Positions 11,995-44,772 of a stretch of DNA of 54,412 nucleotides are shown in pieces. The translations under genes and the position numbers were made by a program. Location: positions 1 through 54,412 of IMG/VR virus record IMGVR_UViG_3300027710_000034; one strand, given 5' to 3'. Position 1 is the stretch's first letter. Each line of letters opens with the position of its first letter. The stretch comes from a virus. The notes under the pieces are model-generated. The model searched no databases. It saw nothing but the letters and a program-made list of their open reading frames with translations, and was not told the DNA's origin.

Positions 11995-12073
11995 CGCGGA
12001 GTAGAGGAGTCTGGTCGTCCTCGCTGGTCTCATAAGCCGGAAATCGTTGGTTCAAATCCAACCTCTGCAACCA
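11995..12073 (+). tRNA. Initiator tRNA-fMet(CAU)
   Basis: Anticodon CAU with acceptor CGCGGAG against CTCTGCA, leaving an unpaired C1-A72 end, the hallmark of bacterial initiator tRNA, plus AACCA 3' end and T-loop TTCAAAT as in E. coli tRNA-fMet. The usual three G-C pairs in the anticodon stem are only partly kept (the last pair is U-G). Confidence 0.85.
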
Positions 12074-12221
12074 GTTTGAATGTAATGGAAGTTCCTGTGG
12101 CGACCAAGCGATTGGGGGAAGATAGGAACGTAAAGAGCGAAATTACCGACAGTAGCGTGTCGACACCTCAGTTGCCATTATGTTCATTAAAAAGTTTTTT
12201 GAAATTATTTTCAAAAATGTA
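12074..12221 (+). ncRNA. Structured spacer RNA
   Basis: Holds no credible gene. GTTCCT (about 12090) pairs with AGGAAC (about 12126) enclosing CCAAGCGATTGG, a GNRA-type hairpin. An AT-rich inverted repeat, TTTTTGAAA with TTTTCAAAAA, ends the stretch at about 12216, just before a promoter; it may act as a weak terminator. Confidence 0.35.
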
Positions 12222-12250
12222 TTGACAATTACCTTAATATAGGGTATAGT
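12222..12250 (+). promoter_or_regulatory. Sigma70-like promoter of the giant RNA
   Basis: TTGACA at 12222-12227, 17-bp spacer, TATAGT at 12245-12250. No start codon with a ribosome-binding site or long frame follows; the product appears to be the structured RNA. Confidence 0.8.
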
Positions 12251-12704
12251 TGAAAAATAGAAATGGCGGTATAGCGTCATTAGAATAATCCAGGGAAACT
12301 TGGAAAAAGCAGGGACTCCTACGTAACTGCGCCAGTAATGGTTCATCTATACAAGCCTGAACAAACTCGAAAGAGTCCGTCGGTGGAATGGCGGTAGGCA
12401 GTAAGTAATGGTCGAAGGTCCGAAAGGATAGGTTACAGAGCCGAATCGGTGAGTAACTAAATGGGGTGGTACCCATGCCAAGGCAAACCAACATTGCGAT
12501 TGCTGAATGTTAACAGGTAGTTATTGAGTCTGACCTCGCAAGGAAAGGCAAGATAGCAATACAAACGAAGAAAGTATGGACATACAGTGCTGTGCTGGAC
12601 TCGTGAAGTATGGTTGATTAGTCCGCAAGACGAAAGACATTAGGAGTGTGGTATTCCGTATCTAACAAGATATGGAGCAACTGGAGCAGCACTTCTTGGT
12701 AGGT

Positions 12705-12774
12705 TCGCAAATTGCTTAATGGTAAAGCAACAGTCTCTTAAACTGTCGATCTGGGTTCAACTCCTGGTTTGTAT
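12705..12774 (+). tRNA. tRNA-Lys(CUU)-like domain inside the giant RNA
   Basis: Good D-arm GCTT/AAGC, anticodon arm ACAGT/ACTGT with loop CTCTTAA (CUU) and T-arm with TTCAACT, but the acceptor has only about five pairs and no CCA is encoded. It sits between the two arms of a perfect 10-bp helix of the surrounding RNA. It may be a domain and not a free tRNA. Confidence 0.55.
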
Positions 12775-13110
12775 ATAAAAAGCGAAAGACTGCTCCAGTG
12801 CTACGTGAAAGGTGCTTAATACCTTAGTCGCAAGGCAATAGGGTCTACGGAAGCTCGCAAGGCAGAAGTAGTTATTCGGATTGAAGACGTAGGTTCTTAG
12901 CGGAACCGAACTGCTCGCAAGGCAGACGGAAGAATGATGGATGAATAGCGTAGCATGATAGTGGAAACGCCACCACTTTAAAAAGGCAGCACTGAGTGAT
13001 ACTAGATGACCAGCGATGGCACTAGTGGATAAAGGATTAACACTTCTCGCAAGGAAGTCGGTACGGTCCAAAGGCACTCATCAATTCAGGAGTAATCTCA
13101 TCCTGTCCTA

Positions 13111-13191
13111 AGACTTATTAGATGAGTGCACTGCCCGTCACTAATACGGGAGGTTCTGGAACCCAGTGCATTCTTCTAATAAGTTTTTTTT
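13111..13191 (+). terminator. Three-way-junction element with U-tail, 3' end of the giant RNA
   Basis: ACTTATTAGA (13113-13122) pairs with TCTAATAAGT (13175-13184); inside, GAGTGCACTG pairs with CAGTGCATTC with one G-U; two side hairpins, CCCGT/ACGGG and GGTT/AACC, complete a three-way junction. Eight T residues (13184-13191) follow the closing stem, so it can work as an intrinsic terminator. It is a diverged second copy of the element at 11456. Confidence 0.65.
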
Positions 13192-13194
13192 GTT

Positions 13195-13270
13195 GGGGAA
13201 TTAGCTCAGTTGGTAGAGCGTCTGCCTTGCACGCAGAAGGTCAACGGTTCGAGACCGTTATTCTCCACCA
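13195..13270 (+). tRNA. tRNA-Ala(UGC)
   Basis: Acceptor GGGGAAT/ATTCTCC, anticodon loop with UGC, T-loop TTCGAGA, encoded CCA. Starts 4 bases after the U-tail. Confidence 0.94.
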
Positions 13271-13398
13271 AGTTAGACCACCTCTGCTGAACCCGCGAAA
13301 GGGTAAAGATATAGTTGCAACTGTATTCTTTATCTGGGAAGATCGAAGCGTCCGGACGTAATTCGATCAAGGCACACTGCAGGTGGTCGCTCTTTTTT
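13271..13398 (+). ncRNA. Compact structured RNA with terminator tail
   Basis: GACCACCT (13276-13283) pairs perfectly with AGGTGGTC (13381-13388), followed by CGCTC and six T. Inside are ACCC-GCGAAA-GGGT, TAAAGA/TTCTTTA around the palindrome AGTTGCAACT, and GATCGAA/TTCGATC around GTCCGGAC. No ORF is likely. It looks like an independent small RNA or a structured terminator between tRNA-Ala and tRNA-Leu. Confidence 0.55.
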
Positions 13399-14025: not shown

Positions 14026-14107
14026 GCCCAAGTATCCCTCTCCGCTACGAACGGAGCCAAAGGTAACTGGAAGTAAGATGCAGGTTCGAATCCTGTCTTG
14101 GGCTCCA
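14026..14107 (+). tRNA. Aberrant tRNA-Arg(ACG)-like gene with rearranged arms
   Basis: A perfect acceptor GCCCAAG/CTTGGGC, normal T-arm GCAGG/CCTGT with TTCGAAT and encoded CCA enclose an anticodon arm CTCCG-CTACGAA-CGGAG, whose loop is that of Arg(ACG). That arm begins 7 bases after the acceptor, where the D-arm should be. A D-arm-like hairpin, CCA-AAGGTAAC-TGG, instead lies between anticodon arm and T-arm. The discriminator is U. It may be a D-armless class II-like tRNA, a rearranged gene or a tRNA mimic. Confidence 0.55.
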
Positions 14108-14163
14108 GATTTATCACGAATGTTAGATTCGCGATAATTACATATAACAACAAGGAATTAATT

Positions 14164-15253: not shown

Positions 15254-15289
15254 AAAAAGTGCCAAGGAAAAAAACTTGGCACTTTTTTT
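15254..15289 (+). terminator. Strong intrinsic terminator
   Basis: AAAGTGCCAAG (15256-15266) pairs perfectly with CTTGGCACTTT (15275-15285), followed by a run of T to 15289. It ends the first tRNA transcript. Confidence 0.92.
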
Positions 15290-15299
15290 ATTTTAGGGC

Positions 15300-15328
15300 T
15301 TGACAATTTCTACATTTCGAGGTATAGT
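15300..15328 (+). promoter_or_regulatory. Sigma70-like promoter, cassette type A
   Basis: TTGACA at 15300-15305, 17-bp spacer, TATAGT at 15323-15328, and the same leader as at 10634 with one change. It drives three tandem small genes. Confidence 0.87.
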
Positions 15329-15355
15329 GATATTATAGTTTGAAAGGAAATCGTT

Positions 15356-15541
15356 ATGGAAGTTTTTGTTTTGAAGGGTGGCATCGGGGTTCAGTTGGGC
15401 GTCTATGCATCTGAAGATGAAGCACGGGATGCCCACGGTGTATACATTCGTGACGGCGGTCGGTTCCTCGATTCCTACTATATCGTGCGGCAAGTAGTTG
15501 GTGCAACTGCAGATGCCGATGCGGATCGGATCTGGATCTAA
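15356..15541 (+). CDS. Tandem small-protein paralogue 1
   Basis: A 61-residue acidic protein opening with MEVFVLKGG and holding the family core GVYASEDEARDA. It shares this pattern with the next two genes, so the three arose by tandem duplication. A beta-beta-alpha fold is plausible. Function unknown. AAAGGA ribosome-binding site from the promoter cassette. Confidence 0.75.
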   Translation: MEVFVLKGGIGVQLGVYASEDEARDAHGVYIRDGGRFLDSYYIVRQVVGATADADADRIWI

Positions 15542-15557
15542 AGAAAGGAAATTGGTT

Positions 15558-15761
15558 ATGGAAGTTTTTGTTTTGATGGGTGCGATGGATCACGATGCGC
15601 ATTACGTTCTTGGTGTTTATGCTTCTGAACAAGAAGCAGTAGATGCTTTGGGTGTTTACCTTCGTGACCTCGATGAATCGTGGCATGATGAGTATTATGT
15701 CGATCGCCGTGTGCTCGGTGCACATGCGGAATATGATTCCGATCCTCATCGGTACCTCTAA
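15558..15761 (+). CDS. Tandem small-protein paralogue 2
   Basis: A 67-residue protein beginning MEVFVLMGA with core LGVYASEQEAVDALGVYL; the first 7 residues are identical to the preceding gene and the core is very similar. Start ATG 15558 follows AAAGGAA; the longer upstream frame overlaps paralogue 1 and is rejected. Confidence 0.75.
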   Translation: MEVFVLMGAMDHDAHYVLGVYASEQEAVDALGVYLRDLDESWHDEYYVDRRVLGAHAEYDSDPHRYL

Positions 15762-15782
15762 AGTTTTTATGGAAGGTTGATT

Positions 15783-15959
15783 ATGCAAGTTTATGTCGTG
15801 AACAATGAATCTCCTGGTGGAGATCACTCGATTATGGTTGGTATCTACTCGACCGAAGAAAAGGCGAGAGAGATGATCAAATTCTTGGAACGTGAAACTC
15901 CTGAATGGTATCCTACCTACTCAGTTGAAGACGTTGATCCAGAAGATCCGATGTATTAA
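15783..15959 (+). CDS. Tandem small-protein paralogue 3
   Basis: A 58-residue protein, MQVYVVNNE at the start and VGIYSTEEKAREMI in the core: the most diverged of the triplet. Weak ribosome-binding site GGAAGG about 8 bases before the ATG. It ends just before a tRNA gene. Confidence 0.72.
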   Translation: MQVYVVNNESPGGDHSIMVGIYSTEEKAREMIKFLERETPEWYPTYSVEDVDPEDPMY

Positions 15960-15964
15960 AGTTT

Positions 15965-16100: not shown

Positions 16101-16176
16101 GGATCATTAGCTCAGTTGGTAGAGCAGCGGACTCTTAATCCGCTTGTCGTAGGTTCGATCCCTACATGATCCACCA
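16101..16176 (+). tRNA. tRNA-Lys(CUU)
   Basis: Acceptor GGATCAT/ATGATCC, anticodon stem GCGGA/TCCGC with loop CTCTTAA, T-loop TTCGATC, ACCA. Confidence 0.95.
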
Positions 16177-17596: not shown

Positions 17597-17668
17597 GCCA
17601 GCAGTGCAAGTGCACGACTGACTCTCATAAGGTTGGTTCGGTAGGAGCGTTACCTACTGCTGGTACCA
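17597..17668 (+). tRNA. Degenerate tRNA-like gene with CAU loop
   Basis: Good acceptor GCCAGCA/TGCTGGT with ACCA, but a shortened D-arm, a weak anticodon stem around CTCATAA and a non-canonical T-loop (AGCGTTA between GTAGG/CCTAC). Probably a decaying CAU tRNA or a tRNA mimic. Confidence 0.5.
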
Positions 17669-25731: not shown

Positions 25732-26129
25732 TTATTCAGAATGCCGTAACATGTCTCGGTTGCGGGGACTTCATTGTCTCCAAGCATCGCCATGACTTTG
25801 TGACATGCACTTGTGGTGCCATCTCTGTAGATGGTGGGCAATCCTACCTTCGTCGTGTTGGTGATTTTGGCAATTCGATCGATCTCTCTTGGAGTCTGCC
25901 CGATGCTGTTTACGAAGATTGCGCAGAGGCAGTACAGAATGCCATGGATAGTGGTCGCAATAAGTTTGGCATCGCTAATGCTGTGATGCGCACTCTGCGT
26001 GAGTATGAACGCATCGTCGCAGAAGGCGAGCAACGTGTGTTGGCAAAGAGCATAGGTCTCGACGAGATTATGGTCGAGGAAGCAGACGGAAGTTATAACC
26101 GTTATAAGAAGGTGAATGAAGATGACTAA
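25728..26129 (+). CDS. Zinc-binding phage protein, DUF7695-like
   Basis: A 133-residue protein with GTG start overlapping the previous stop. The N-terminus has CLGCG (10-13), SKHRHDFVTCTCG and SVDGGQSYLRR, the pattern of a widespread small phage family with a zinc-binding CxxC/CxC core. The C-terminal two thirds are helical. Function of the family unknown. Confidence 0.75.
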   Translation: MIIQNAVTCLGCGDFIVSKHRHDFVTCTCGAISVDGGQSYLRRVGDFGNSIDLSWSLPDAVYEDCAEAVQNAMDSGRNKFGIANAVMRTLREYERIVAEGEQRVLAKSIGLDEIMVEEADGSYNRYKKVNEDD

Positions 26130-26361
26130 GATTTCAGTAGAACTTGATGTTGAGCAGTTTGATAAACTAGTTGTAGAAGAATTGATCAGAACTCGCGAGG
26201 CATTTCTCAATGATCTCGGCGCAAACAATCATGTGTTTGTGTATGGTGATCAGGAAGCAGATGACATCGAGATTCAGAAGCATATTGATTCCCTTGATGA
26301 TTTGATCAAGTGGTTTGGCACACCAGAGCAAGTAAAAAAGGTGTTTGGTGATGAAGACTGA
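26122..26361 (+). CDS. Hypothetical acidic protein
   Basis: A 79-residue acidic protein. Two in-frame ATGs (26116, 26122) are possible; I prefer 26122, 9 bases after AAGAAGG. The segment ELIRTREAFLNDLGANN and the ending WFGTPEQVKKVFGDED are helical. No function assigned. Confidence 0.72.
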   Translation: MTKISVELDVEQFDKLVVEELIRTREAFLNDLGANNHVFVYGDQEADDIEIQKHIDSLDDLIKWFGTPEQVKKVFGDED

Positions 26362-43434: not shown

Positions 43435-44772
43435 ATGGTTAAAGTTATTGTCGCCGATTCTAAACTAGATTGCGAGCATCTGCTCGGTCAATATCTAGAT
43501 GAGAGTCATTTCGACATTGTGGTCAATGAAGATACAGACTGTTATAAAGAGTCTGATTCTCTGCTCGATACAGAGTTGACTGAAAACAGGATTGCATTTA
43601 AGTTTCGTAAGAACTTCTTCTCGCCAGAAGAACAGGAGCAGGCATACATTGGTCTGCGCGAAGCAGCAACCGAATCACAGAATCGTGGTCTGGCAGCAGG
43701 TCCACGTGGTGAGTTGCTAGGCGTAGAAGGTCGCGGTGGTCGCGACTGGGTAACTGATTACGAACTCGAGATTCTTGATTTTCTGATGACAGATAAGGGT
43801 CGACTGATCGACGAACTTAGTATCGAGAGCATTCGTGCTAAGCATGCAGGTGCACCACGATCTAATGCAGATGAAACTCGAGGCGCAGTCTGGTTGCGCA
43901 GTCAAGTATGTAAAGTATATCCAGAATATTTTGGTTGGTTCGACGTATGGGTCGACAGTCTAGAAACAAAGAGTAAAGAAGATGTTGCAAAGGAAGCGCG
44001 AAATATCGCAGAGAACTGGATTTCAACAACCAACTATGCTAAGTCGGTTTTCTCAGGCGTTGCTGGATGGTATGACCGATATCCTAGAATTCCTTTCGGT
44101 CGTGCTACTACTTACACTCGTGACAATTTTGATAAGTTTAAGTTGGCCTTTCCTTTTCTACAATCTCTTAATCGCGGGTTTAAAGAACTCCTCCCTCGGC
44201 GTTGGTCTAACCAAAAGAGTGCCGTGGATACAATCGATAGTCGATTCGTGGTCCCAGAAACAGTATTCACCACGATCACCGTCAACAAGTCTTTCCGAAC
44301 GGCAGCGCATCGTGACGCAGGCGATTTTGCTGATGGTCTCAGTAATCTTCTGGTCGTTGGTAGTGGTGACTATACTGGCGGTTATCTAATCTTTCCTGAG
44401 TATCGCATCGCAGTGAATGTTCGTCCAGGTGACTTGTTGCTAGTCAGCAATCATGAGATCATTCACGGTAACACCGAGATTAAACTGACAAGTCCAGATG
44501 CTGAGCGTATTTCGTTGGTTTGCTATTTGCGCGAGAACATGCTAGAACTTGGTTCATATGAATATGAAACAACTCGCGAGCAATATGTCATTGACCGCAG
44601 AACTAATAGAGAACACCACCACTATCGTCCACTCTGGAATGGCGTATCTCCAGGAATGTGGGACGAACAAGAATGGTATGACTACCTCGAAACTAAACTT
44701 GGTCGAGATACAGTTGCCAAGTATCATCCTAAAGCATACCAAACAACATCAACACTTGGAGATCTATTTTAA
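43435..44772 (+). CDS. TET/JBP-family 2OG-Fe(II) dioxygenase (5-methylcytosine hydroxylase)
   Basis: A 445-residue protein. The C-terminal double-stranded beta-helix has the TET/JBP signature: HRD (H292, D294) in FRTAAHRDAGDFADG, GDYTGGYLIFPEY, DLLLVSNHEIIHGN (H344) and R358 in ERISLVCYLRE; upstream FGRATTYTRDNFDKF is also typical. Phage TET enzymes hydroxylate 5-methylcytosine in phage DNA as the first step of hypermodification. The next gene is a glycosyltransferase, as in known phage TET loci. No cytosine methyltransferase is in the window; it may be elsewhere. The C-terminus ends TSTLGDLF, resembling a sliding-clamp-binding peptide. Confidence 0.88.
   Translation: MVKVIVADSKLDCEHLLGQYLDESHFDIVVNEDTDCYKESDSLLDTELTENRIAFKFRKNFFSPEEQEQAYIGLREAATESQNRGLAAGPRGELLGVEGRGGRDWVTDYELEILDFLMTDKGRLIDELSIESIRAKHAGAPRSNADETRGAVWLRSQVCKVYPEYFGWFDVWVDSLETKSKEDVAKEARNIAENWISTTNYAKSVFSGVAGWYDRYPRIPFGRATTYTRDNFDKFKLAFPFLQSLNRGFKELLPRRWSNQKSAVDTIDSRFVVPETVFTTITVNKSFRTAAHRDAGDFADGLSNLLVVGSGDYTGGYLIFPEYRIAVNVRPGDLLLVSNHEIIHGNTEIKLTSPDAERISLVCYLRENMLELGSYEYETTREQYVIDRRTNREHHHYRPLWNGVSPGMWDEQEWYDYLETKLGRDTVAKYHPKAYQTTSTLGDLF

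Follow-up and report, generated by a model that had tools for sequence, protein, structure and literature searches.

What occupies the roughly 0.93 kilobases (kb) of apparently non-coding DNA lying within the transfer RNA (tRNA) array of the virus record IMGVR_UViG_3300027710_000034? The window analysed here is the whole of that IMG/VR record (54,412 bases), in which ARAGORN makes 25 tRNA calls between 11.5 and 18.1 kb, one of them inside the interval in question. The interval lies between a tRNA-Met gene ending at 12073 and a tRNA-Ala gene starting at 13195, and holds ~850 nucleotides (nt) of structured sequence between a promoter at 12222-12250 and a 3' element at 13110-13191. A first-pass annotation, made from the letters alone, had read it as a giant structured RNA with a tRNA-like domain inside, either a member of the GOLLD and ROOL group or a new class. 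Our comparison with related loci indicates that the element is almost certainly a phage GOLLD RNA, and it is very likely, both parts being taken together, that it is a GOLLD whose linker carries a tRNA mimic that does not serve in translation.

The GOLLD covariance model of Rfam (RF02032) matches the 3' half of the element from the model's first to its last position (E = 2.6e-48), above the curated cut-off (Table 1), whereas the ROOL model gives no match even at E ≤ 1, although ROOL RNAs are likewise described in the literature as giant, ornate phage RNAs near tRNAs that form RNA cages. The repeated motif CTCGCAAGG, which occurs four times in the RNA when read from the sequence, belongs to the GOLLD consensus. 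Upstream, relatives are homologous to the 5' domain across its length (71-83% identity), and its first ~30 nt match tRNA-less classical GOLLDs (L004, L008, L022 and others, L-numbers being our labels for related loci found by pattern searches; E 0.002-0.04 each), so that the RNA appears homologous to GOLLD at both ends. Beyond this start motif there is hardly any sequence similarity between the 5' domain and classical GOLLDs, and BLAST of the locus against named phages finds partial DNA similarity only; these are the features that could speak for a class distinct from both GOLLD and ROOL. The full-length model match and the start motif common to classical members make such a class vanishingly improbable, and the Rfam models rule out both this option and ROOL. 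In its build, the element resembles GOLLD env-38 and the RF02032 family, with a full 3' domain, a variable 5' domain and a linker between them, a length of more than 800 nt between the predicted ends, and a non-coding locus near tRNAs in the tRNA array of a virus. It differs from env-38 in its branched terminator and in a tRNA-like fold where the linker of env-38 is disordered, and from classical GOLLDs in the diverged sequence of its 5' domain. A further trait of the GOLLD family is expression that increases in the lytic phase.

Relatives were collected with a GOLLD-core pattern, which matched 57 viral stretches (20 loci were sent to Rfam, of which 16 passed the GOLLD cut-off), and with a second, linker-based pattern, which matched 49 stretches, 15 of them new. 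At 71-83% identity, the closest homologues align along the entire query of 977 nt, which takes in the promoter. A stricter GOLLD pattern produced no matches, a pattern scan of bacterial genomes matched only unrelated sequence without GOLLD context, and the pattern hits L029, L032, L035, L045, L056, L079 and L081-L084 also had no GOLLD context. In one record (G003), immediately upstream of a complete GOLLD, there is a partial GOLLD copy at 26065-26180 (L073; model positions 122-298, 49 bits), a tandem remnant.

The first-pass annotation had described the interval as heavily structured and free of open reading frames (ORFs); the first description holds, and the second does in that no sense ORF is conserved. 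The fold of the 936 nt from 12256 to 13191 is more stable than that of shuffled sequence (z = −4.4, with none of 20 shuffles as low). Covariation among homologues, on which the reading as a structured RNA depended, is extensive: the RNAalifold consensus of 26 homologues contains 211 pairs, 140 of them with two-sided changes, and with the non-nested helices added, the 26 full-length homologues support 229 pairs, in which 98.5% of cells are standard pairs and 150 pairs show two-sided changes. Shuffled alignments yield 105.7 such pairs, with none of 500 near the observed value, and the covariation score of 0.546 compares with 0.202 after shuffling and 0.06-0.08 when the structure is slid along the alignment, where a displacement of 1-3 columns lowers pairing to 34-39%. 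The covarying non-nested helices are 12642-12649/12689-12696, 12269-12274/12347-12352 and 12811-12816/12988-12993. The only sense ORF of at least 30 codons (31 amino acids) is intact in 1 of 25 homologues, which leads us to reject a conserved sense-strand protein. Antisense ORFs overlie conserved RNA helices, the longest (106 amino acids, 12757-13077) being intact in 12 and broken in 13 of the 25.

Table 1. Coordinates of the GOLLD locus and its parts in the window
Feature	Coordinates	Strand	Particulars
Sigma-70-type promoter, TTGACA-N17-TATAGT	12222..12250	+	11/12 consensus match; imperfect inverted repeat in spacer
5' domain of GOLLD RNA, less conserved	12256..12641	+	predicted start ~12256; ~385 nt
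5' pseudoknot, GUAUAG 12269-12274 / CUAUAC 12347-12352	12269..12352	+	two-sided changes at 4/6 pairs; 99.3% of cells paired
Conserved 3' domain of GOLLD (Rfam RF02032)	12641..13104	+	177.6 bits, cut-off 150; model 1-416 of 416
First pseudoknot stem, AGGAGUG 12642-12648 / CACUUCU 12690-12696	12642..12696	+	100% of cells paired; two-sided changes at 3/7 pairs
Second pseudoknot stem, ACUGGAGCAG 12680-12689 / CUGCUCCAGU 12790-12799	12680..12799	+	encloses the linker
tRNA-like domain in GOLLD linker, Lys-CUU-like	12704..12776	+	ARAGORN; 4-5-bp acceptor, no CCA
Closing helix, UUCGC 12704-12708 / GCGAA 12782-12786	12704..12786	+	kept in 29/31; replaces upper acceptor stem
Anticodon loop CUCUUAA	12735..12741	+	site differs between close relatives
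Long-range helix, GGUGCU 12811-12816 / AGCACU 12988-12993	12811..12993	+	non-nested; 5 counted pairs 100% paired, 4 two-sided
Branched intrinsic terminator	13110..13191	+	three-way junction closed by helix, then U8; −36.9 kcal/mol, z = −7.5

The anatomy of the locus includes a promoter and a branched terminator of its own, from which we infer independent transcription. The consensus-type promoter noted at first pass is weak evidence taken alone, since the region contains 22 promoter-like sites compared with 14.2 ± 3.9 in shuffles, but −35 and −10 boxes at the same 17-nt spacing also stand 5' of seven close homologues (L002, L003, L015, L021, L023, L028 and L037). At the other end, the U-tailed three-way junction that had been described is borne out by its fold energy, and the position of the window's branched terminator is taken, in two relatives (L011 and L044), by a plain GC-rich hairpin with a U run after it. 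The promoter boxes of the homologues and this terminator replacement are the best evidence for the two RNA ends. The inverted repeat in the promoter spacer (12228-12250) recurs upstream of L002, L003, L015, L023 and L028, where its symmetry is kept while the sequence varies between relatives (for example ACACCA..TGGTGT and CCCT..AGGG), and may be a candidate operator.

How, then, is the linker organised? The first-pass annotation placed a tRNA-Lys(CUU)-like fold exactly within a perfect 10-base-pair (bp) helix. That helix is indeed perfect in the window, and all 31 sequences compared retain its nine inner pairs, four of which show two-sided changes, but it forms half of a covarying pseudoknot rather than a lone enclosing helix. 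Its partner is the first pseudoknot stem, which has the hairpin 12649-12680 internal to it. The tRNA-like fold does lie inside the helix, although not exactly, several nt being left between helix and fold on each side. The short closing helix is compensated as UUUGCG/CGCAAA in Sinorhizobium phage Phosso (L077), and both of its strands are lost together in L009 and L054. Together, the covariation shows that the linker folds into a tRNA-shaped domain anchored by the pseudoknot and the closing helix.

The fold itself is found by the Rfam tRNA model (12705-12775, 50.7 bits) as well as by ARAGORN, and what fails in the earlier assignment is the acceptor stem, which is incomplete. The D, anticodon and T stems and the tRNA core residues are present in the insert, and an alignment of 31 homologues shows 98-100% pairing in these stems, where 11 of the 14 pairs carry two-sided changes; all that is left of the acceptor is a 4-bp core with 87% pairing. 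Among the 33 distinct embedded folds from all related loci, 22 have five acceptor pairs, 11 have six and none has seven, and a CCA end occurs in 0 of 33; by comparison, 301 of the 337 distinct free tRNAs of the same contigs have seven acceptor pairs and 330 have CCA. The window's own insert, with five acceptor pairs, falls short of the 7-bp acceptor of a functional tRNA and has no encoded CCA, which is found in 24 of the 24 other ARAGORN tRNAs of the window. Furthermore, U8, the T-loop TTC and A58, G53-C61 and U33 show no changes on the tree (43 sequences), and U33 is present in 36 of 36 distinct domains. The tRNA core and U33 are thus invariant where the acceptor and CCA are absent, which argues that the elbow fold and a U-turn anticodon loop have been kept and the amino-acid end has not. 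Because of this combination, the insert is in all likelihood a mimic of tRNA that takes no part in translation, a conclusion drawn from comparison.

A functional tRNA-Lys(CUU), processed from a GOLLD precursor and used in phage translation, would also give a cloverleaf recognised by both ARAGORN and Rfam; Lys(CUU) and Arg(UCU) have canonical loops, and the insert sits in an array of 24 other tRNAs. Nearly all of these neighbours, however, have the 7-bp acceptor and CCA that every embedded copy lacks, and on these grounds we reject a functional identity, which seems quite improbable for several further reasons. Each of the 36 distinct domains that were parsed has a variable arm of 4-5 nt, even those with a UGA anticodon, unlike tRNA-Ser; some embedded anticodon loops are 8 nt long; the upper part of the 5' acceptor strand has another pairing partner; and a normal tRNA-Lys(CUU) is already present in the window at 16101-16176.

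The insert also differs between close relatives, with 18 different anticodon loops in 36 distinct domains. We mapped these changes on a tree of the GOLLD scaffold without the linker (47 rows). CUCUUAA, the commonest loop, requires 10 changes on this tree, compared with a mean of 10.8 for random labels (167 of 500 shuffles were as low), and the label is therefore hardly tied to the scaffold; all 18 loop labels together require 27 changes compared with 31.5 after shuffling, a weak clustering to which near-copies contribute. Individual pairs illustrate the kinds of exchange. L002 and L012 differ at 1.4% of the scaffold, at 5 of 7 loop positions and at ~1 of 92 positions in the rest of the linker, and L049 and L058 have exchanged the loop in the same manner; L041 and L057 differ by an exchanged anticodon arm and nothing else, and between L021 and L023 the whole tRNA-like module has been exchanged. 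For many positions of the tRNA-like fold the tree requires 7-16 steps, compared with an average of 4.0 in scaffold columns, whose 95th percentile is 11. It follows that the whole module turns over quickly and not the loop alone; a change confined to the anticodon loop is rejected by the per-column counts, in which most variable tRNA positions are fast. We claim, from these alignments, a turnover of the whole module accompanied by some loop-only and arm-only swaps.

In four loci (L018, L027, L040 and L078) the T arm is absent, and what is kept is a D-like arm, one nt and an anticodon-like arm of 5 bp and 7 nt with U at loop position 2. Minimum-energy folds of these forms predict the D-like arm and the closing helix, and the anticodon-like arm only in L040, so that retention of this arm in the T-armless lineages is suggestive. 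Embedded loops that are also found in free tRNAs of these contigs are limited to Lys(CUU), Arg(UCU) and, in a T-armless form, Pro(UGG). Recent gene conversion, with neighbouring tRNAs as donors of the anticodon arms, was considered and rejected, 0 of 50 parsed embedded arms matching a free-tRNA arm in these contigs.

What might such an insert be for? Cryo-electron microscopy (cryo-EM) has shown GOLLD env-38 to be a homo-14-mer hollow RNA cage with the linker in its lumen (PMC12286853). By analogy, the RNA described here would assemble into a 14-subunit hollow cage with the linker in the lumen, and each cage would present up to 14 acceptor-less anticodon arms. These arms could act as replaceable bait, capturing or occupying a host protein that recognises tRNA, such as an anticodon nuclease. 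We propose a bait because the tRNA fold is kept without its acceptor end while the anticodon arm changes, as would be expected of one. Evasion of anticodon nucleases has been proposed for phage tRNAs whose anticodon loops are altered (PMC10264068), and free phage tRNAs are reported to counter some defences (PMC11555353). These phage RNAs resemble the insert in their tRNA shape, which in some cases includes an unusual anticodon loop, and differ in being free tRNAs, whereas the acceptor-less insert cannot replace a tRNA. A bait for a tRNA-recognising host factor is possible but tentative. More speculative still is the wider proposal that members of a large GOLLD subgroup hold an acceptor-less cartridge in the shape of a tRNA, with an anticodon arm swapped fast on an unchanging scaffold, and that the cage is an anti-defence device displaying changing baits. 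Several points weigh against these ideas. If the cage is closed as in env-38, the bait inside would be out of a nuclease's reach, save where the cage opens or is built up around the protein it targets. Since the whole module is fast, the pattern may reflect recombination without an arms race, and 16 of the 18 loops of intact domains are unlike any free-tRNA loop in these contigs. Moreover, classical GOLLDs occur without a tRNA-like insert, and a Lactobacillus prophage GOLLD is reported (cited in PMC7567579) to be dispensable for phage production.

Alternatively, the tRNA-like fold could be a compact linker filler or folding insulator, captured from an adjacent tRNA gene and retained since it leaves the cage undisturbed. 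Classical GOLLDs carry AU-rich, tRNA-less linkers at the same place, some changes swap the whole module, as between L021 and L023, and free tRNAs lie within 1.5 kb of 33 of 39 GOLLDs with an insert but of 0 of 9 without one, frequencies that are biased by the search patterns used to find the relatives. This adjacency fits capture from the tRNA array. A filler need not, however, keep U8, U33 and the T-loop core unchanged while most other positions vary, nor does it account for the anticodon-like arm retained by the T-armless forms. We give this passive role somewhat less than an even chance, and on present evidence it is at least as likely as the bait. The conserved tRNA core and U33 could instead serve to recruit ribosomes or other translation machinery to the GOLLD particle, and ribosome binding to GOLLD in a pull-down has been reported (cited in PMC12286853). 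Recruitment seems unlikely, as the insert lacks the acceptor end, the part of a tRNA bound at the peptidyl-transferase centre, and its anticodon changes too quickly to serve a single fixed role in decoding.

A tRNA in the GOLLD linker is known in outline, GOLLD RNAs with linker tRNAs having already been published (PMC12286853; PMC6582537); the addition here is the probable nature of the insert as a non-translating mimic. In mycobacteria ('Maub' type strain), a degenerate tRNA likewise lies within a GOLLD gene in a tRNA cluster, and this internal pseudo-tRNA showed no detectable separate expression (PMC6582537). That copy differs in being chromosomal and probably phage-derived, and its likeness to the present locus is one of description. 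If the insert is a maintained, swappable mimic, the purpose of the GOLLD cage becomes testable through the anticodon loop alone, and an anti-defence bait cage, if true, would give GOLLD RNAs a first function. Automatic annotation of inserts as ordinary tRNA genes can inflate phage tRNA counts and anticodon statistics. In Phaeobacter phage MD18, for instance, the GOLLD insert (L074, 3087-3160) is annotated as an ordinary tRNA-Arg although it lies inside the GOLLD match. A permuted transfer-messenger RNA lies downstream in this phage and in L009.

Two inter-tRNA spacers on either side of the GOLLD locus, 13271-13396 and 12074-12192, are predicted to form multibranched hairpins with long closing helices (z = −2.6 and −2.3, respectively). 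They are similar in shape to the branched terminator of GOLLD and conserved in relatives, and a T run follows 13271-13396.

Elsewhere in the array, ARAGORN misses a tRNA-like gene at 14026-14110 with a 7-bp acceptor, a T arm, an encoded CCA and an anticodon arm bearing the loop CTACGAA (Arg ACG), in which no D arm is recognisable; tRNA-Arg is absent from the ARAGORN list of the window, and relatives conserve the element (L028 and L003 at 98%, L023 at 76%). A second unlisted tRNA-like element at 17597-17668 has a 7-bp acceptor, an ACCA end and a non-canonical T loop, AGCGTTA, and is 87-88% identical in L039 and L012. In the region 15290-15960, a terminator at 15254-15287 is followed by a second TTGACA-N17-TATAGT promoter at 15300-15328. 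A second giant RNA downstream of this promoter was considered and rejected, 15356-15959 being a tandem run of small ORFs; three of them have similar starts (MEVFVL, MEVFVL and MQVYVV). Finally, 43435-44772 encodes a TET/JBP-family oxygenase (Pfam Tet_JBP, E = 1.1e-23), which suggests that the phage DNA may contain modified bases.
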